64,000 nt of DNA from Nostoc sp. LEGE 12450 (lineage in GTDB: Bacteria; Cyanobacteriota; Cyanobacteriia; Cyanobacteriales; Nostocaceae): positions 1 through 64,000 of the forward strand of contig NZ_JADEXU010000003.1 of the NCBI RefSeq assembly GCF_015206895.1, given 5' to 3'. Of this stretch, positions 12,355 to 26,901 are shown one piece after another. Within the stretch, counting starts at the first letter, position 1; each line of letters opens with the position of its first letter. Both the position numbers and the translations under genes were made by a program. A model generated the notes under the pieces. The model saw only the letters and a list, made by a program, of their open reading frames with translations. It did not search any database and was not told the origin of the DNA.

Positions 12355-12537
12355 CTACCAGGCTCTGGGACCGCCCCAACCACGACGCCAACCACCGCCC
12401 CATTTAGGACGCCAACCGCCGCGCCATTTAGGACGCCAACCGCCGCCCCACCTGCGGACGTTACCTCCACCTAAAAGCTCCTGTTGCTCCATGGATAGCT
12501 CGACAAGCAAATCGGATTGGATGGATTGAGATGACAT
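12355..12537 (-). CDS. Double-glycine leader peptide precursor, Trp/Gly/Arg-rich core
   Basis: 60 residues. The leader of exactly 25 residues starts MSSQSIQSDLLVEL and ends ELLGGG, a C39-peptidase double-glycine site; this type is known in cyanobacteria as CTB-family bacteriocin. The 35-residue core is made of repeated GGWRPKW-like units with eight Trp, eight Arg, two Lys and no acidic residue. ATG 12537 is preferred over the frame start 15 bp upstream because GAGG then lies 9 nt before it, as in the two sister precursors. Probably cleaved and exported by the adjacent ABC transporter. Activity (toxin, signal) is unknown. Confidence 0.8.
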   Translation of the reverse strand: MSSQSIQSDLLVELSMEQQELLGGGNVRRWGGGWRPKWRGGWRPKWGGGWRRGWGGPRAW

Positions 12538-12653
12538 AATTGTTTGCCTCAATTTTATACAGTGCAGAAGAATGGCTAGTGCCTTGATTGATGCAGAAAA
12601 AGCTGTAGTTTAAAACTATTTTGATCTGAAATAAACGGAGTTTACCTATCTTT

Positions 12654-12677
12654 AACAAGGGGCTTAAGCCCCTTGTT
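12654..12677. repeat. Perfect palindrome between precursor genes
   Basis: AACAAGGGGC-TTAA-GCCCCTTGTT, a 10-bp perfect stem, lies between the 12770 precursor and the 12537 precursor. No long T-run follows on either strand. It may attenuate or stabilise the transcript, or be a dispersed repeat. Confidence 0.6.
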
Positions 12678-12769
12678 TGCTTATAGGAGACTGCTCAAAT
12701 TCTTTCTCGAAATTGAATTTATCTTGAGAAAATTATATGAGCTTTTCTTTCTCCCACTAATTGCAAAGT

Positions 12770-13012
12770 TTAGGACAACCTTGGGATTTTGCGGAGACTC
12801 ACGATACCCCTAATAAAGAATCGTTTACGACGGGAACCGCCTGGGGATGAGCCTCCACCTTCGAAAGAAGGCTCTTCACCACCCTCTCCTTCATCACCTA
12901 ATTCTTCATCACCTGAGTCTCCTTCATCGCCAACTTGTCCGCCAGCTAGAAACTGTTGTTGCTCTGTAGATAAGTCTACAAGCAAATCAGACATAGTAAT
13001 TTGATTTGACAT
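12770..13012 (-). CDS. Double-glycine leader peptide precursor, charge-segregated core
   Basis: 80 residues. The leader is 25 residues (MSNQITMSDLLVDL to FLAGG) and closely matches those of the neighbouring precursors. The core after GG is split: about 30 residues dominated by Asp, Glu and Gly, then a basic C-terminal part with SRRKRFFIRG and LRKIPRLS. The acidic segment might keep the basic peptide inactive until a further cut (inference). GAGG lies 9 nt before the ATG, and a conserved hairpin and 13-mer lie further upstream. Same locus as the C39 transporter. Confidence 0.8.
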   Translation of the reverse strand: MSNQITMSDLLVDLSTEQQQFLAGGQVGDEGDSGDEELGDEGEGGEEPSFEGGGSSPGGSRRKRFFIRGIVSLRKIPRLS

Positions 13013-13336
13013 ACCTTTTTACCTCACTTACGAACATAGGTGTTATTCACCTATATTTTTAATAATAATTATTTTGTGAGAGTTTAAATTACTCCAAAGT
13101 TAGAAATGATAATAATAAAAATATTTCTTTTGGCTCATGAATATTTAAATAACAAGCAAATAAAAATAATATTTGAGAATTAATTGCCAAAGCTATATTA
13201 GCTTATGCAAAATTACTCAAGTTTCATCCTAATTTAGTAAGTTAAAACTTGAGTAGTATAAGTTCTATTGAGAAACGTAGAGGCACTATTAATTGTGCAT
13301 CTATGCCTAGTTAACTGCTTTTTTCGAAACTAATTT
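13013..13336. other. Intergenic leader region
   Basis: 324 bp between precursor genes. Apart from the leader element at 13022-13054 it is AT-rich with no recognised feature. A promoter for the 12770 precursor may be here. Confidence 0.35.
13022..13054 (-). promoter_or_regulatory. Conserved leader element of precursor mRNA (13-mer plus hairpin)
   Basis: On the minus strand, a 7-bp perfect hairpin (ATAGGTG / CACCTAT, 13036-13054) is followed by TTCGTAAGTGAGG (13022-13034), then 9 nt and the ATG of the 12770 precursor. The same arrangement with a different hairpin sequence precedes the 18438 precursor. The element covers the ribosome site. Confidence 0.65.
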
Positions 13337-13654
13337 TTATGAAAAAACACTATTTAATAGATTGGCAATCAAATTTTTCAATTTATCCCCTCCTAAACTA
13401 AAGTTTGGTAAACCAAACGTTATCGAAGACCCAATAGTAAATTGTGACAAACTATATCTAGTTTTTTGTGAAGAAATATCACCACTTACAAGCTTTAATG
13501 TATTGTCTGCCGCACTTTGGATATTAGTTTGCTGGATAAAAAAATTACTTCCACCTGGTATATTTGCGATTTGCCCAGCAGCTAGGTTTTCCTGTTCTTC
13601 TTCAGATAAATCACTAAGCCATTCAGGATTATGGGATTTGGGATTTTCAGACAT
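13337..13654 (-). CDS. Divergent peptide precursor next to the C39 transporter
   Basis: 105 residues, immediately downstream (30 bp) of the ABC transporter gene. The start MSENPKSHNPEWLSDLSEEE and then QENLAAG resemble the leader pattern LSxEEQExLAxG, but the site is Ala-Gly rather than Gly-Gly; a later IPGG could be an alternative cut. The remainder is Ser/Asn/Leu-rich with a C-terminal amphipathic stretch (KLKNLIANLLNSVF). It lacks the 13-mer leader element of its relatives, so it is probably expressed from the transporter transcript. Likely a member of the same peptide family but less certain. Confidence 0.65.
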   Translation of the reverse strand: MSENPKSHNPEWLSDLSEEEQENLAAGQIANIPGGSNFFIQQTNIQSAADNTLKLVSGDISSQKTRYSLSQFTIGSSITFGLPNFSLGGDKLKNLIANLLNSVFS

Positions 13655-13684: not shown

Positions 13685-15853
13685 TTACATTGATAAAAAT
13701 TTTAAATGCTCTCCTTGCTGAGAGAGAAAAGTCTCAAGATCGCCTTGTATTTGTACCTGACCTTTATCTAGTAGTACAATCCAATCGGCTCGATTAATTA
13801 CGCTGGGACGATGGGTAATCAAAATAGTAGTTTTGCCTTCTCGGTATTCCAAAAGCCTGTCTAGTACGTGAGATTCGCTGACTGGATCGAGTCCAGCTGT
13901 TGCTTCGTCTAAAATCAGTACAGGTGGATTGGTAAGGATGCCTCTAGCGATCGCTAATCGTTGTCTTTGTCCACCAGAGATATTTGCCCCAAATTCCCCT
14001 AAAACTGTTTGATATTGATTCGGAAGTTGACTGATAAACTCATCTGCATCCGCTATCTGGCAAGCTTTGACAATTTCTTCAAAGGAAATATAAGGTGTTC
14101 CTAAACGGAAGTTTTCTAAAATTGAGCGACTCCAAAAATGAGGTTCTTGGGGTACATAGACTACTTGTTGTCGCAAACAATCCAGGGAAAGATCGTTGAT
14201 GTTATAGAAACCAATGCGGATATTGCCAGAGTTAGGCTGATATAAGCCTGCAATCACTTTCGCTAAAGTACTTTTACCACAACCTGATTTACCAATCAAA
14301 GCGATCGCTTTCCCTCCAGGAAGTTTAAGAGAAAAATCCTCTAATAAGTCAACTCTACCAGGGTGGTGAAATTGGACATGGGAACAGCGAATGTCTGCAT
14401 CACTAGAAATTTGAACAACCGGCTTTTGACTACCTCCGACTACTTCTGGTGTCGCATCGATAACTTCTAGAAGGCGAGAAATTGCTGTTTGAGAGCGAAA
14501 ATATTCATCTACTAAGCCAACCACTGAGTTAATTAAAGCCAGAACATTAAATTGTAGGGCGTTAAAAGCCAGCATTTGACCGATGCTTAATTCCCCATTA
14601 ATCACCAAGATACTTCCTAAACCAAGTAAAATCACACCACCAATGGTAGCTATAAGTTTGCTAATAGTACCGTTGATAATACCGATTTGGATAGTGCTAA
14701 AAGTCAAGTTAGCAAGGCGACCAAAGCGGCTTTGAAATTCATCCCAAAATTGCGGAGCGGCATTTGTAGTTTTGATTACCTGTGCGCCCTTAAATGTTTC
14801 CACCAAAACACCTTGATTTTCCGTCCCTAAAACTAAGAGACTGCGGGTTTTTTGTTGGAGGATGGGTAAAAAAGGTAGGGTAGAGAGGGTAATTAACCCA
14901 GCAAAAATCATGACTGCCATTGTCAGTTTCCAGCTGTAAAACAGCATCACGCCAAAAGAAACCACGGCAACAAAAAACTGGCTAGGTAAAAGAACTACAA
15001 TTTGCGATACTAACTGGTTGATGTCGTTGATATCTCGCAGACGGCTAGTGATTTCACCACTACGACGGGCTTCGTAGTAATTTAAAGGCAATTGGAGAAT
15101 TTTTCGCCCAAATTCCAAGACTAATCCTAATTGCAGTCGCTGCCCAAAATGAGCAATCATAATCGCCTGCAATAGTTGCAAAGTACTGCCGAATAAGCTC
15201 ATAACTACAACGGCTGAGATTACAACAGTGAGTAACTGCGTATCTCCACGCACAAGTACATCGTCTGTAAGCAGTTGGATCAAGACGGGAGTACTTAGAG
15301 CCAACAGACCTAAGACAATGTTGATCGTTATAACTTGAGTTAGCAGTCCACGATAAGGTAAAATGCGTACTAAAAAGCGACTTAAGCCACCTTTTGCTTC
15401 TTCTTTGGGCTGCTCAAAAAAGCGGACTGGATCTGGCTCTAGTAAGAGCATCACCCCATTCCAAGCTTCTGTTAACTCTTCTCGGTTAATATAACGGATA
15501 CCCACAGCTGGATCGGCAATGACGTACTTATTGCCGCGCTTGGTGTATAAAACAACCCAATGATAACCCCGCCAATGAATAATTGCTGGTAGATTGATTT
15601 CTGTGATTCTATCCACGATCGCAGGTGAAGCTTTCACTGCCCTAGCATTAAAACCCAGAGTCTCAGATCCACGCTTTAAACCCAGCAAAGTTGTTCCTAG
15701 CTGTCCAGTCCCAACGGCATCTCGACTGCGATTTATGCTTAAAAAACGTCCGTGATGTTTGCAAATTGAAGCAAGACTAGCGGCTCCACAGTCTTCTTCA
15801 CTCAACTGCAAAACACACTGGTAATTTTTATGGAGTTTGAATAGATCAAACAT
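13685..15853 (-). CDS. C39-peptidase-containing ABC exporter
   Basis: 722 residues. The N-terminal C39 peptidase domain has LSEEDCGAAS (catalytic Cys22), GYHWVV (His98) and IADPAVG (Asp114), an intact triad that cuts after double glycine. A six-helix membrane domain spans about residues 160-440. The ATPase has GKSGCGKST (Walker A), SGGQRQRLAIARG (signature), and VLILDEATAGLD (Walker B). It should cleave leaders and export the cores of the nearby precursors through the HlyD adaptor and an outer-membrane channel encoded elsewhere. ATG 15853 is chosen over a GTG two codons upstream. It follows the HlyD gene by 26 bp as an operon. Confidence 0.92.
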   Translation of the reverse strand: MFDLFKLHKNYQCVLQLSEEDCGAASLASICKHHGRFLSINRSRDAVGTGQLGTTLLGLKRGSETLGFNARAVKASPAIVDRITEINLPAIIHWRGYHWVVLYTKRGNKYVIADPAVGIRYINREELTEAWNGVMLLLEPDPVRFFEQPKEEAKGGLSRFLVRILPYRGLLTQVITINIVLGLLALSTPVLIQLLTDDVLVRGDTQLLTVVISAVVVMSLFGSTLQLLQAIMIAHFGQRLQLGLVLEFGRKILQLPLNYYEARRSGEITSRLRDINDINQLVSQIVVLLPSQFFVAVVSFGVMLFYSWKLTMAVMIFAGLITLSTLPFLPILQQKTRSLLVLGTENQGVLVETFKGAQVIKTTNAAPQFWDEFQSRFGRLANLTFSTIQIGIINGTISKLIATIGGVILLGLGSILVINGELSIGQMLAFNALQFNVLALINSVVGLVDEYFRSQTAISRLLEVIDATPEVVGGSQKPVVQISSDADIRCSHVQFHHPGRVDLLEDFSLKLPGGKAIALIGKSGCGKSTLAKVIAGLYQPNSGNIRIGFYNINDLSLDCLRQQVVYVPQEPHFWSRSILENFRLGTPYISFEEIVKACQIADADEFISQLPNQYQTVLGEFGANISGGQRQRLAIARGILTNPPVLILDEATAGLDPVSESHVLDRLLEYREGKTTILITHRPSVINRADWIVLLDKGQVQIQGDLETFLSQQGEHLKFLSM

Positions 15854-15879
15854 GGTCACTAGACCTATTAAATGAGTGA

Positions 15880-17394
15880 TTAAAAATTTGTGATGAATCT
15901 GGCTTTGCGGAGAATGAACTGAAGCACCGTTTCTCGACGGGAAATTATATCAGCTCTACCTTCCATACCCGCTTTCAGATGACACTGGCGATCGCTTCTA
16001 CTCAAATATGAAGTTTTTGGCTCAATAGTTACTTCATAAGCAACTACCTGAGCTTGGGCTACACCTGAATTGACATTATTTTTTACAGGTAAAGCATCTG
16101 GTGCAACTGTTTTGACAGTTCCTTTGAGAGTGCCGTAGTCTGGATAGGGACAAGCAGAAACTTGCATCTGAACTTTTTGGCCTGCTTTTACCTTGTCAAT
16201 ATCTTGAGCCGGCACACGAGCTTTAACTACTAAAGAAGCGTTGAGAGGAGCAATCTGAGCGATCGCTTCACTTGGTTGTACTACTTGTCCTGGGTTGCGA
16301 AGATTCAATTGCATCAGTGTTCCAGCGATTGGCGATCGAATCACACTCAAATTCAAGTCGGTTTGAACCTGTTGCAAATCTTTGCTGCTGCTAACGAGTT
16401 GTTTTTGGAGTTCAAGGCGTTGCTGGAGTAAGGTTTCTCGTTCTTTTTTCAAAGCGGCTAAAGTAGCCTCACCTCTAGCCCGTTCCTGCTTAATCCGTTC
16501 AGATGCCACTATTACTGTCGCATTACTGGCATTAATTGCGGTTTTAGCTTTTTCTAAATTCGTTTGCGCGATATTTAGGGCTTGTTCTTTGTCCTCCAAA
16601 AGATTTTTAGCACTAACTTTAGCTTCTTCTAGCTTCGCCTGAGCAGATATAACTGCTTGTTCTTTTTCTTCAAACAGATTGCGAGAAACCGATCCCGATG
16701 CGACTATCGGCTGCAATCGGTCACGTTGCACCTTGGCTACTTGCAAAGCTGCTTCTGCTTCTTGTACAGTTGCCCTTAAAACTTTTTCCCGTAGTAAGCG
16801 ATCGCGTTGTACCTTGGCTAAGATTAAAGCTGCTTGTGCTTGTGTCATGTCAGCCGCAGCTTTAATTTGCTGATCTTGATAGTTGCGTTGTGTCCCATGC
16901 AATTCAGCTTGTGCAGCAATAATCGTGCGGTTGGTTAAGTTTGTCTGGGCTGCAATCTGGGTATCGATTTCACCCAGTTGAGCATTAATTTGACTTTGTT
17001 GTAATTTACCTTGCTGAATACTATTTTCTAGTTGACTCTTTTGAGTCTGAAGGCGGGAATTATCAATTTGAGCGATCGCTTGTCCCTGAGTCACCACCTG
17101 ATTTTCTTGAATATCAATGTTTTGAACGGTTCCAGCCATAGCAGACTGAACAACCCGTAGTTCTCCTACAGGTCGAATACTTGCAGGAACTTTGACCGTG
17201 ACATTGTAACTGAGAATAGATGTAAGAGCGATCGCAGCCATAAAGGTAGTAAGTAAAACTCCTCCGCCAATGTTAGTCCATTTGCTGATATGGGGGAGAA
17301 ACTCGTTAACATCAACTACATGGAGTTGTTCTGGATTGGGTTCATTAAACCTATTTCCAAAATAGTTTTCCTCACGGACTAAGAAGTTCGCCAT
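15880..17394 (-). CDS. HlyD-family periplasmic adaptor of the peptide exporter
   Basis: 504 residues. One membrane span (about residues 38-62) is followed by the N-terminal half of a lipoyl-like domain (VVQSAMAGTVQNIDIQENQVV), a long coiled coil about residues 115-335 (Gln/Lys/Ala/Glu-rich), and the second lipoyl half (IRSPIAGTLMQLNLRNPGQVV), then a beta-barrel domain. This is the standard layout of a type I secretion membrane-fusion protein. First gene of the minus-strand hlyD-ABC-precursor operon. The coiled coil is longer than in minimal adaptors because of internal repeats (VQRDRLLRE / VQRDRLQPI). Confidence 0.9.
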   Translation of the reverse strand: MANFLVREENYFGNRFNEPNPEQLHVVDVNEFLPHISKWTNIGGGVLLTTFMAAIALTSILSYNVTVKVPASIRPVGELRVVQSAMAGTVQNIDIQENQVVTQGQAIAQIDNSRLQTQKSQLENSIQQGKLQQSQINAQLGEIDTQIAAQTNLTNRTIIAAQAELHGTQRNYQDQQIKAAADMTQAQAALILAKVQRDRLLREKVLRATVQEAEAALQVAKVQRDRLQPIVASGSVSRNLFEEKEQAVISAQAKLEEAKVSAKNLLEDKEQALNIAQTNLEKAKTAINASNATVIVASERIKQERARGEATLAALKKERETLLQQRLELQKQLVSSSKDLQQVQTDLNLSVIRSPIAGTLMQLNLRNPGQVVQPSEAIAQIAPLNASLVVKARVPAQDIDKVKAGQKVQMQVSACPYPDYGTLKGTVKTVAPDALPVKNNVNSGVAQAQVVAYEVTIEPKTSYLSRSDRQCHLKAGMEGRADIISRRETVLQFILRKARFITNF

Positions 17395-17725
17395 GTTAGA
17401 TCATTTTTTGAAATTTATACGTCAAAAGCTCAGATTTATCTAATATCAACCCAAATTCTTTTGCGGCAAAGCTGATTATCTTACATACATTGATTGCAAA
17501 TCAGATGCTACAAAAAATATATCTTTGGTAATACGCCACAGGGCATAATAAAGAATTAAAGGCTATGTTAATCTTGCCAAGATTAATCAGATAGCTAATC
17601 ACAGATTCGGCTTGTAAGTTAATCACAATATGAAATGGGCTATCATCAGGAGTGTTTGCCAAATTCAAGAATGAGAAAGTAACATCTACTGCTAAAAATT
17701 CCCAGCATAATGTTTTATGATTGTC

Positions 17726-17731
17726 TATAAT
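17726..17731 (+). promoter_or_regulatory. -10 box for the candidate small RNA
   Basis: A perfect TATAAT lies 5 nt before the proposed RNA 5' end. No good TTGACA-like -35 is seen 17 bp upstream, which is common for cyanobacterial promoters. Confidence 0.5.
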
Positions 17732-17736
17732 TAGTA

Positions 17737-17900
17737 AAAGGGGAAGAGAAAGATGTGCGCGACAACATAAGCGAATTTATCTTTCTCAGGATTCAAACGC
17801 GGGCAACGCGGTAAAGAATACAGAGGAGAACGCTCAAACTCCCTCAAAGTCCTCACTTACGTTGAGCGAGTTGCAATAAACTCCTCTGGCCCCCTTTTTT
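17737..17900 (+). ncRNA. Candidate structured small RNA antisense to precursor leaders
   Basis: About 164 nt. The proposed 5' end AAAAGGGG pairs with CCCCTTTT just before the terminal T-run (17891-17900). Inside are GAGAAAGAT/ATCTTTCTC (17746-17754, 17779-17787), CAGAGGAG/CTCCTCTG (17821-17828, 17881-17888) and CGCTCAA/TTGAGCG (17831-17837, 17862-17868). These stems are mutually compatible. The 24-nt apical loop contains CCTCACTTACG (17851-17861), the exact complement of CGTAAGTGAGG in the leaders of the precursors at 12770 and 18438, which includes their Shine-Dalgarno GTGAGG. Likely role: block precursor translation. No known family (6S, tmRNA, SRP, Yfr) is recognised. Confidence 0.65.
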
Positions 17901-18437
17901 ATTTATAAACAAAACAATCTTAACTACAAGCCTACATCCTGAATCTGGATGCTTGCTTTCTGTGCAGAGTCAATAACAGGCAAGTATTGAAATTACTTAT
18001 TTGGATTTATGGTCAGGTAATAAAGATAGTAAAAAAACGAGTTTTACAAAAAATGGATTCACTCTTAGCTGGTTGAAAACCTTAACTCACAACTTTCTCG
18101 TTGAGATTCTTTTCGCCGATGATTTTGATAGATGATGAAGATGTAAAATATCTATCGGCTAAGAAGCGGAAACTTAGAATTTCCAAATTATCCAGCAGCA
18201 CCACAATGATAAAATTGGTGGTGCTGTGTGGTGAAAGTAGACAGGTAGTCTCTATAGTAATCAGCTACTCGATTCAAAGTTGTAAATTTAAACTAAGAAA
18301 AGTTATAAAAGCCAAAAAGTGCAAAAAACACTTTTGACATTTTATTTTTTACTTTCTCTTCTTCTCTGCCTAAATTTGCTAAATGCTCTGATGATGTAAT
18401 AGCTGATTTTTTCAAATTACCTGTGGAAATAATCAAT

Positions 18438-18725
18438 CTAAGCGGTAAACAGACCTGGTAATAAAGTAGGTAAGGCAAGTGCGGGTATAACAGCAGCACC
18501 ACCTAATTGTAAGCCCTGTGATGCTGATGTCTGAGTACCGTCATTTGAGCCTTGACTGTTAGCTTCGCTGCCATTGGGCCCAGATCTACTCCTTCCGTCT
18601 AACTTTGTAAGTCTTCTAGCGAAATTGCTCTGATTTCTCTGAGAGTCTACACCGCCAGCGACTAGCTCTTGTTGTTCGTCCAATAACTCGACAAACAACT
18701 TAGATGTGTTGATTTGATATGACAT
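18438..18725 (-). CDS. Double-glycine leader peptide precursor, Ser/Asn/Gly-rich core with hydrophobic tail
   Basis: 95 residues. The leader is again 25 residues, MSYQINTSKLFVEL to LVAGG. The core begins polar and basic (NFARRLTKLDGRSRS), has a Ser/Asn/Gly/Thr-rich middle, and ends with a hydrophobic stretch AAVIPALALPTLLPGLF. ATG 18725 is chosen over a frame start 15 bp upstream because GAGG stands 9 nt before it. The gene is about 1 kb upstream of the hlyD-ABC operon on the same strand and carries the conserved 13-mer and hairpin in its leader. Probably exported by that transporter. Confidence 0.75.
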   Translation of the reverse strand: MSYQINTSKLFVELLDEQQELVAGGVDSQRNQSNFARRLTKLDGRSRSGPNGSEANSQGSNDGTQTSASQGLQLGGAAVIPALALPTLLPGLFTA

Positions 18726-18734
18726 GATTGTTAG

Positions 18735-18768
18735 CCTCACTTACGAAATTAGGTATGTGACTACCTAA
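18735..18768 (-). promoter_or_regulatory. Conserved leader element of precursor mRNA (13-mer plus hairpin)
   Basis: On the minus strand, a 7-bp hairpin (TTAGGTA / TACCTAA, 18749-18768) precedes TTCGTAAGTGAGG (18735-18747), then 9 nt and the ATG at 18725. The 13-mer is identical to that of the 12770 precursor, while the hairpin sequence differs but keeps stem length and position. Confidence 0.65.
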
Positions 18769-26325: not shown

Positions 26326-26426
26326 CTGAATTTCTGATTGGGAGTGAGGTTTACTGGATTTTAGACTGTAGCTGATTATCTCAATAATTCCAGCGTATCT
26401 GCAAGTGATCGTTTTTACATACCAAT

Positions 26427-26496
26427 TAAAAAACGCCTGGGAGTGTTGCCGTGTTTCCACCCCAGGCGCTCTTTATTTTTAACTTGCTCCTCACAC
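26427..26496 (-). ncRNA. Tandem small RNA copy 1
   Basis: On the minus strand the unit reads GTGTGAGGAGCAAG, an A-rich spacer, then the hairpin CGCCTGGG...CCCAGGCG (26434-26468 as plus coordinates) and a run of six T. The loop contains GGTGGAAACACGGCAACACT. This is one of three copies at 160-bp spacing. Strand assignment rests on the T-run and on a TGATA-type -10 shared by the copies; the plus strand is not excluded. Confidence 0.55.
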
Positions 26497-26588
26497 AGCT
26501 AAATACTATCACTGGTTCAATTAAAAGGCGTTTATTGCGAGTGACACTTTTAAAACTGTACCAACAATCCAATTTTTATATGCAAATT

Positions 26589-26657
26589 AAAAAATGCCTG
26601 GGAGTGTTGCCGTGTTTCCACCCCAGGCATTTTTTATTCTTAACTTGCTCCTCACAC
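26589..26657 (-). ncRNA. Tandem small RNA copy 2
   Basis: The same unit as copy 1, with hairpin arms ATGCCTGGG and CCCAGGCAT (26594-26602 and 26622-26630). Relative to copy 1 the C-G pair at the stem base is changed to T-A on both arms, a compensatory change. The loop sequence is identical. TGATATG on the minus strand lies just upstream as a likely -10. Confidence 0.55.
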
Positions 26658-26748
26658 ACAACTAAAACATATCACTACTTCTATCTAATGGCAAGTATAT
26701 TGAGTGACATTTTTAAAACTGTACAAGCAATCCAATTTCTGACCAATT

Positions 26749-26817
26749 AAAAAGCGCTTGGGAGTGTTGCCGTGTTTCCACCCCAAACGCTTTTTATTTT
26801 TAACTTGCTCCTCACAC
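26749..26817 (-). ncRNA. Tandem small RNA copy 3
   Basis: Third copy. The arms are AGCGCTTGGG (26753-26762) and CCCAAACGCT (26782-26791). Most changes compensate (CTTGGG with CCCAAA), leaving one C-A mismatch. The loop is identical to the other copies. It lies 85 bp past the 3' end of purH. Confidence 0.55.
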
Positions 26818-26901
26818 ACAAATATAAGATATCACGAATTCAATTATAAAGAAAGTATATAGTATGACACTTTCTCAACCGTACACCTGACAAGCAATAA
26901 T

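Follow-up and report, generated by a model that had tools for sequence, protein, structure and literature searches.

The window analysed here is the whole stretch of 64,000 nucleotides at the start of contig NZ_JADEXU010000003.1 (positions 1 to 64,000, forward strand) of Nostoc sp. LEGE 12450, assembly GCF_015206895.1. It holds a CTB-type double-glycine peptide export locus and, within this locus, a predicted small RNA (sRNA) which is the subject of this report. The export locus comprises genes for a C39-peptidase ABC transporter for double-glycine peptides (13685–15859; Pfam PF03412, PF00664 and PF00005), an HlyD-type membrane fusion protein (15880–17394; PF13437) and four small precursor peptides. 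All these genes are encoded on the minus strand, and the sRNA gene lies on the plus strand between the HlyD gene and the precursor at 18438. Many cyanobacterial genomes carry several CTB bacteriocin precursors; to our knowledge, little is known about their control. With the protein model NF038167 the precursor at 18438–18725 scores 74.3 bits, above the cut-off of 32, and the other three (20.6–25.1 bits) fall below it. These are the CTB-like precursors at 12770–13012 (21.4 bits), at 12355–12537, whose leader contains only a degenerate form of the site described below (AAAATTGAGG), and at 13337–13654, an MSEN-type precursor whose leader lacks the site. The start of the 18438 precursor was placed at the ATG at 18725 because of the protein-model match and the spacing, and not at the GTG at 18740 chosen by the open reading frame (ORF) finder, which falls within the target motif.

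Fold, covariance model and covariation together predict an sRNA of about 160 nt (17738–17900, plus strand) with a T-run at its 3' end (17895–17900). A TATAAT -10 box is present at 17726–17731. The two ends pair as a closing helix, P1, formed by AAAGGGG (17737–17743) and CCCCTTT (17891–17897), which covaries in the alignment of relatives. Inside this helix are the hairpin P2 (17746–17754 with 17779–17787), the stem P4 (17821–17828 with 17881–17888) and the apical hairpin P5, in which ACTC-C-CTCAA (17838–17847) pairs with TTGAG-C-GAGT (17862–17871) around a 14-nt loop (17848–17861). The full loop reads AAAGUCCUCACUUACG and contains the seed, CCUCACUUACG (17851–17861), which was assigned from complementarity and pairing energy. 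The minimum free energy (MFE) of the sRNA is -58.1 kcal/mol, compared to -37.1 +/- 3.9 kcal/mol for 200 shuffled sequences (z = -5.33), none of which folded as well. In the window sequence the MFE structure puts two weak pairs inside the 14 nt, so that 8 of these stay unpaired, and the seed can be opened at a cost of 2.3 kcal/mol. A search with the Rfam 15 covariance models gave no gathering-level match at the sRNA, and none with an E-value up to 5 in 17600–18000.

A preliminary description of this DNA had proposed an unannotated RNA with a TATAAT box, pairing of its 5' and 3' ends and a terminal T-run on the plus strand, all of which are found, and no Rfam family matches at its place. It had also listed three further stems; inner stems are present, but P3 (the ACGCG/CGCG region) is weak, with 30% of cells paired in the alignment. 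The 24-nt loop that it described was rejected as the conserved fold; the conserved loop is 14 nt, and the GCTCAA/TTGAGC stem is an alternative fold lost in one clade, which lacks GCTCAA but has ACTC-N-CTCAA/TTGAG-C-GAGT. A coding origin, in the form of a 52-amino acid ORF at 17721–17879, was rejected, the longest plus-strand ORFs ranging from fewer than 10 to at least 80 amino acids across 82 relatives.

The sequence CCTCACTTACG at 17851–17861 has its exact complement on the minus strand at 13022–13032 and 18735–18745. Both complements, CGTAAGTGAGG, are in precursor leaders, the former in that of 12770–13012 and the latter in that of 18438–18725, the primary target. This 11-mer has three exact matches in the window, two in the precursor leaders and one reversed in the sRNA, compared to 0.52 expected even with one mismatch allowed, in agreement with the earlier view that the matches were unlikely by chance. 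Directly upstream of each site is a leader hairpin, an inverted repeat on the minus strand (TTAGGTA-6-TACCTAA at 18749–18768 and ATAGGTG-5-CACCTAT at 13036–13054). The loop–leader duplexes have energies of -19.8 and -18.3 kcal/mol, while the best among 46 other ORF leaders is -12.9 kcal/mol. The leader sites of the two targets in the window open at a cost of 3.4 and 4.9 kcal/mol; with opening taken into account, pairing has a net energy of -9.8 and -11.2 kcal/mol.

The RNA is conserved among relatives. A starting DNA search gave hits in 20 of 99 genomes, the source genome being one, and a covariance model was built from these 20. Within the genus this model matches 19 of 53 genomes; 18 (the source genome included) have the main RNA, and one, G042, has a paralogous element alone. 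The covariance search in related Nostocales, proposed in the preliminary description, recovered the RNA in 86 of 217 genomes of the family Nostocaceae, a few of the matches being weak (G042 among them); further matches were obtained in 11 of 195 genomes of an order sample and in two of 19 genomes of a second family. The sRNA was found here in two Nostocales families only. In the named sequence collection, an 18-base loop pattern matched 92 stretches, of which 80 (all but L101–L112) were put through the covariance model. The whole RNA was present in 46/46 cyanobacterial records and in 0/34 others, a contrast which serves as an internal control. Among the named hosts are Nostoc, Anabaena, Dolichospermum, Nodularia, Cylindrospermum, Desmonostoc and Komarekiella.

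The stems covary. In an alignment of 83 sequences, two-sided changes occur at 21 of 34 pairs, amounting to 132 cells compared to 40.5 in shuffles and 10–33 when partners were slid; the alignment was fitted to the structure, and the score is flattered to that extent. P2 has two-sided changes at seven of its nine pairs, with A-U in place of G-C at one pair in 26 sequences. The six modelled pairs of P4 are paired in 96.8% of cells. In P5, 98.1% of cells are paired and C-G is changed to U-A at one pair in 11 sequences; family-wide, this hairpin has the form ACTC-N-CTCAA/TTGAG-C-GAGT around 14 nt, with an almost invariant loop. Outside P3 there are 97 G-U cells and 38 A-C cells, an excess expected for an RNA made from the plus strand. 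TATAAT is perfect (6/6) in 79 of 82 relatives on the plus strand, while on the opposite strand the best match is 5/6, in 17 of 82. The paralogous element L157:17601 was counted in the 83-row alignment and left out of the 82-sequence set and of the 84-locus set described below.

Complementarity to precursor leaders extends across these relatives. Each RNA's own 10-nt seed complement was sought in the surrounding DNA of 84 loci (1.58 Mb), two of which, L247 and L248, were added by hand. It occurs in 154 copies outside the RNA, compared to about three expected by chance on the basis of equal base use. A start codon lies 4–15 nt downstream of 152 of these copies, and at 9 nt in 117; at least two of the counted sites (L159:17047 and L182:1008), judged by eye, look like chance matches within coding genes. 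Of the 84 loci, 80 contain at least one copy. Disappearance of stems and complement from relatives retaining the peptide genes had been named beforehand as evidence against the proposal; in relatives whose peptide genes lie next to the RNA, both are kept. When precursors were defined by a regular expression, the longest complement reached at least 9 nt in 109 of 245 leaders, an undercount since the first expression skipped other glycine motifs and GTG starts, while none of 753 other ORF leaders reached 8 nt. Most leaders share a common build, in which a hairpin of the GGTG..CACC type is followed by GUAAGUGAGG, a spacer and the start codon. Perfect inverted repeats of at least 4 in this upstream hairpin are present in 133/152 leaders (77/152 when shuffled) and of at least 5 in 119/152 (29 when shuffled). 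Target site and leader also stand before short, seemingly truncated precursor frames near the RNA (L263:9015, L171:9499, L175:16763, L302:16879 and L291:9570).

The match is restricted, among CTB clusters, to those at the RNA. Among the matches listed for NF038167, the exact 10-mer is present in 20 of the 23 leaders that lie no more than 12 kb from the RNA, and in none of 98 leaders elsewhere, even with two mismatches allowed. The 98 consist of 75 from other clusters of RNA-bearing genomes, four in G042 and 19 in five genomes without the RNA. These 121 precursors lie on DNA stretches already retrieved and most of their matches start at model position 1 or 2; precursors with later model starts, or on contigs outside the retrieved stretches, fall outside the set. 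In one Nodularia genome (G353), the exact 10-mer is carried by two of the five precursors beside the RNA and by none of four in its other CTB cluster. One of the start sites published for this genome, at 3264182, is 20 nt upstream of the start codon of a CTB gene.

In one genome of another family (G231, locus L180), seed and leaders appear to have changed in step, in one or two events. Its seed is CCTCTCTTAC, and the leaders of two precursors closely related to each other carry GTAAGAGAGG and CTAAGAGAGG, the altered forms being CCUCUCUUAC in the seed and GUAAGAGAGG in the leader. G042 keeps the exporter, with 89% identity along the C39 protein and 69% along the HlyD protein, as well as a precursor whose site is degenerate; the covariance model finds no main RNA there, and the genome lacks GTAAGTGAGG at 5–12 nt before any ATG.

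Sites also occur away from the export locus. The exact 10-mer stands before an ATG in 41 of 53 genus genomes, whether the RNA is present or not, and many of these sites are unrelated repeats. In RNA-bearing genomes, where all 41 listed out-of-locus sites were examined along with two in-locus ones, 12 of the 41 lead double-glycine precursors. In genomes lacking the RNA this applies to two of 36 distinct sites (37 of the 43 listed rows were examined, L354 and L381 being the same site). Two unlinked precursors with the site are in the source genome itself, on contigs C22 and C259. Since unlinked precursors carry the same leader, the target set is likely to be a regulon rather than the locus alone. 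The earlier proposal that the RNA acts on the precursors of its own locus is supported by the in-locus complements in 80/84 loci, but it is probably too narrow, as unlinked targets are likely, and too broad, as some locus precursors have no site. Precursors outside the export locus with the leader GTAAGTGAGG, most of them with the hairpin, were noted at L306–L311, L313, L323, L327, L332, L335 and L345.

The computed results comprise a conserved structured RNA, a complementarity which is likewise conserved and which, within CTB clusters, is confined to those beside the RNA, and one in-step change. On this basis we consider it highly probable that the element is the gene for a trans-acting antisense sRNA of the CTB bacteriocin export locus, which blocks translation of those double-glycine precursors that bear its address. 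We infer that the sRNA is transcribed, from its own TATAAT promoter, in response to some controlling signal, and that the transcript would end in the closing helix and T-run. The closed multi-stem fold would then display the 14-nt apical loop, whose seed, CCUCACUUAC, may pair with GUAAGUGAGG, the 10-nt address common to the leaders of CTB precursor mRNAs. This address includes their Shine-Dalgarno sequence, and its end is some 9 nt upstream of the start codon. Contact between the loop and 10–11 leader bases, including the Shine-Dalgarno GAGG, is thus predicted to hide the ribosome site. Repression is the expected outcome because the seed covers the Shine-Dalgarno region, and it would affect address-bearing precursors both in the locus and at unlinked sites. 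In the window, control would be selective, the third and fourth precursors having no good site. With a seed that is predicted to be exposed and that complements the ribosome site of mRNAs from other genes, the RNA appears to fit the kind of sRNA that acts by blocking Shine-Dalgarno sequences.

Several observations weigh against this interpretation. The loci are kin by descent, so the counts are not independent. Two of the four window precursors have no good site, the exact 10-mer complement is missing from four of the 84 loci, and 136 of the 245 leaders defined by the regular expression have no 9-nt match, an overcount given the errors of that expression. The in-step change comes from a single genome, in which two of four precursors have neither form of the site, and at L248 the seed core is altered (AGTCACTTAC) though a leader has kept GTAAGTGAGG. 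In RNA-bearing genomes, 29 of the 41 sites outside the locus lead no double-glycine precursor, and two address-bearing precursors, L314 (G049) and L358 (G035, 72% complete), belong to genomes in which the search did not find the RNA. Finally, the base beside the 10-mer was considered as a further compensatory position and rejected, agreement being only partial: A in the RNA predicts T, which is present in 6/12 primary leaders.

The same pairing could have another outcome, namely stabilisation of the mRNA, recruitment of a nuclease or titration of the RNA by precursor mRNAs acting as sponges. Complementarity does not reveal the sign of the effect, the same 10-mer is carried by many mRNAs which could outnumber the RNA, and the hairpin just upstream (a repeat of at least 4 in 133/152 leaders, 77/152 when shuffled) could stabilise a leader by itself. 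Activation by unmasking is nevertheless improbable, given that the seed covers the Shine-Dalgarno region and that the leader opens at a cost of only 3.4 and 4.9 kcal/mol, and we regard an outcome other than repression as unlikely overall.

The RNA has relatives of its own within these loci. The weaker model matches there are homologous elements oriented like the RNA, and 31 of 32 examined lie at the stop codon of an opposite-strand precursor, from 73 nt after to 15 nt before it (25/25 in one set and 6/7 in the other). The remaining one, L167:10524, has no precursor at the element; another element begins within the last codons of its precursor. In the window, a degenerate element of this kind, matched very weakly (9.5 bits, E = 0.74), is found just after the stop codon of precursor 12770–13012, at 12598–12762. 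The loops of the elements differ from that of the sRNA, as in L157:17601 and L169:15294, and none of the 32 has a perfect TATAAT. When the seeds of 23 elements were compared with their own regions, the best matches were of 8–14 nt, with no discernible pattern. Because they lack a perfect TATAAT and are placed at precursor stop codons, these elements are treated as putative precursor 3' elements and not as further sRNAs. Stretches shared between the RNA and the elements average 9.4, compared to 7.0 when shuffled (21 pairs). Pairing of the RNA with the elements at two sites was set aside, descent alone being able to explain the shared stretches. The main RNA and precursor 3' ends probably have a common origin, and the RNA seems to be an antisense relative of the 3' elements that acquired a promoter and a matching loop.

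This kinship raises the question of whether the RNA-like sequence is a functionless remnant or side product of a precursor cassette duplication, an antisense of a 3' element or of a leader, as the placement of 31/32 homologous elements at opposite-strand stop codons might suggest. The preliminary description had offered a duplicated leader relic as its alternative. The perfect TATAAT in 79/82 main copies compared to 0/32 elements, the covarying helices, the nearly unchanged loop and the one in-step change of seed and leader argue against it, and we consider such an origin without function very improbable. Equally improbable is that the 10-mer is merely a strong ribosome site, as its GAGG at Shine-Dalgarno spacing and the two motif-bearing precursors from genomes in which no RNA was detected would allow, or a DNA signal for a regulator, the complement in the RNA being incidental: among the matches listed, 0/98 CTB precursors of other clusters have it within two mismatches, the bases upstream of GAGG are kept though presumably unneeded for ribosome binding, and a hairpin loop of the RNA has retained the reverse complement.

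The repressor proposed above resembles several known RNAs in part. In Yfr1 the motif CACUCCUCACACC is conserved in all homologues (PMC4734099). Yfr1 and the sRNA each have an unpaired conserved motif that pairs, or is predicted to pair, with mRNAs, and the 7-mer UCCUCAC is common to the Yfr1 motif and the sRNA loop (PMC4734099); Yfr10 likewise holds its motif in an apical loop (PMC6778093). However, the loop AAAGUCCUCACUUACG has UCCUCAC only and not CACUCCUCACACC, and its seed, unlike Yfr1, continues as CUUAC, matching the bacteriocin leaders. Yfr1 is also shorter, at about 54–57 nt, with its motif between two stem-loops, whereas the sRNA is about 160 nt with an apical loop in a closed fold. 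A functional parallel is provided by the csRNAs of Streptococcus pneumoniae that act on comC, a gene for a double-glycine-type precursor. These csRNAs repress comC by complementarity, and restored complementarity restores suppression (PMC4507080). There, as here, small RNAs face a secreted-peptide precursor gene, but five RNAs act on one precursor, whereas the sRNA would face many paralogous precursors with a common address.

Cyanobacterial bacteriocin clusters with C39 transporters and HlyD have been described (PMC3140520), and share with this locus the peptide family (NF038167) and the kind of transport genes; the main text of that paper makes no mention of RNA, promoter or ribosome. The bacteriocin genes of Nodularia are discussed in PMC3610870 and PMC9846622, in passages where this RNA does not appear. 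A second bacteriocin cluster of five genes, NSP_RS06270-06290, is reported to be unchanged by phosphate (PMC9846622); to judge from the number of its genes and their location, this is probably the cluster beside the RNA. In the literature searched on cyanobacterial sRNAs and bacteriocins, no description of this RNA or of an RNA regulator of CTB clusters was found. Table 1 of a study of Nostoc sp. PCC 7120 lists unassigned sRNAs of similar length, for instance of 155 and 164 nt, with homologues only in heterocyst formers (PMC4734099). The present sRNA may be one of these entries.

A conserved RNA facing a common leader address would offer a testable reason for the possible silence of precursors, and a handle to switch them on. 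It would also provide a case in which one sRNA seed and many paralogous targets can be traced across dozens of genomes. A broader and more tentative proposal, which we hold to be possible but somewhat less than even in likelihood, is that this one RNA acts as master switch for a regulon of double-glycine peptides spread over the genome, and descends from the antisense of a structured precursor-trailing element. Precursors might be enrolled in it by a standard leader, conceivably consisting of hairpin, GUAAGUGAGG, 9-nt spacer and start. If so, an arms cassette would have evolved its own brake.

Elsewhere in the window, three tandem copies of Cyano-1 RNA (RF01701), which we take to be the Yfr2 group, lie on the minus strand at 26425–26500, 26586–26661 and 26746–26821. 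Yfr2 motifs are nearly complementary to Yfr1 (PMC6778093), and RNAs of the Yfr2 type could in principle also contact the UCCUCAC loop of the sRNA.
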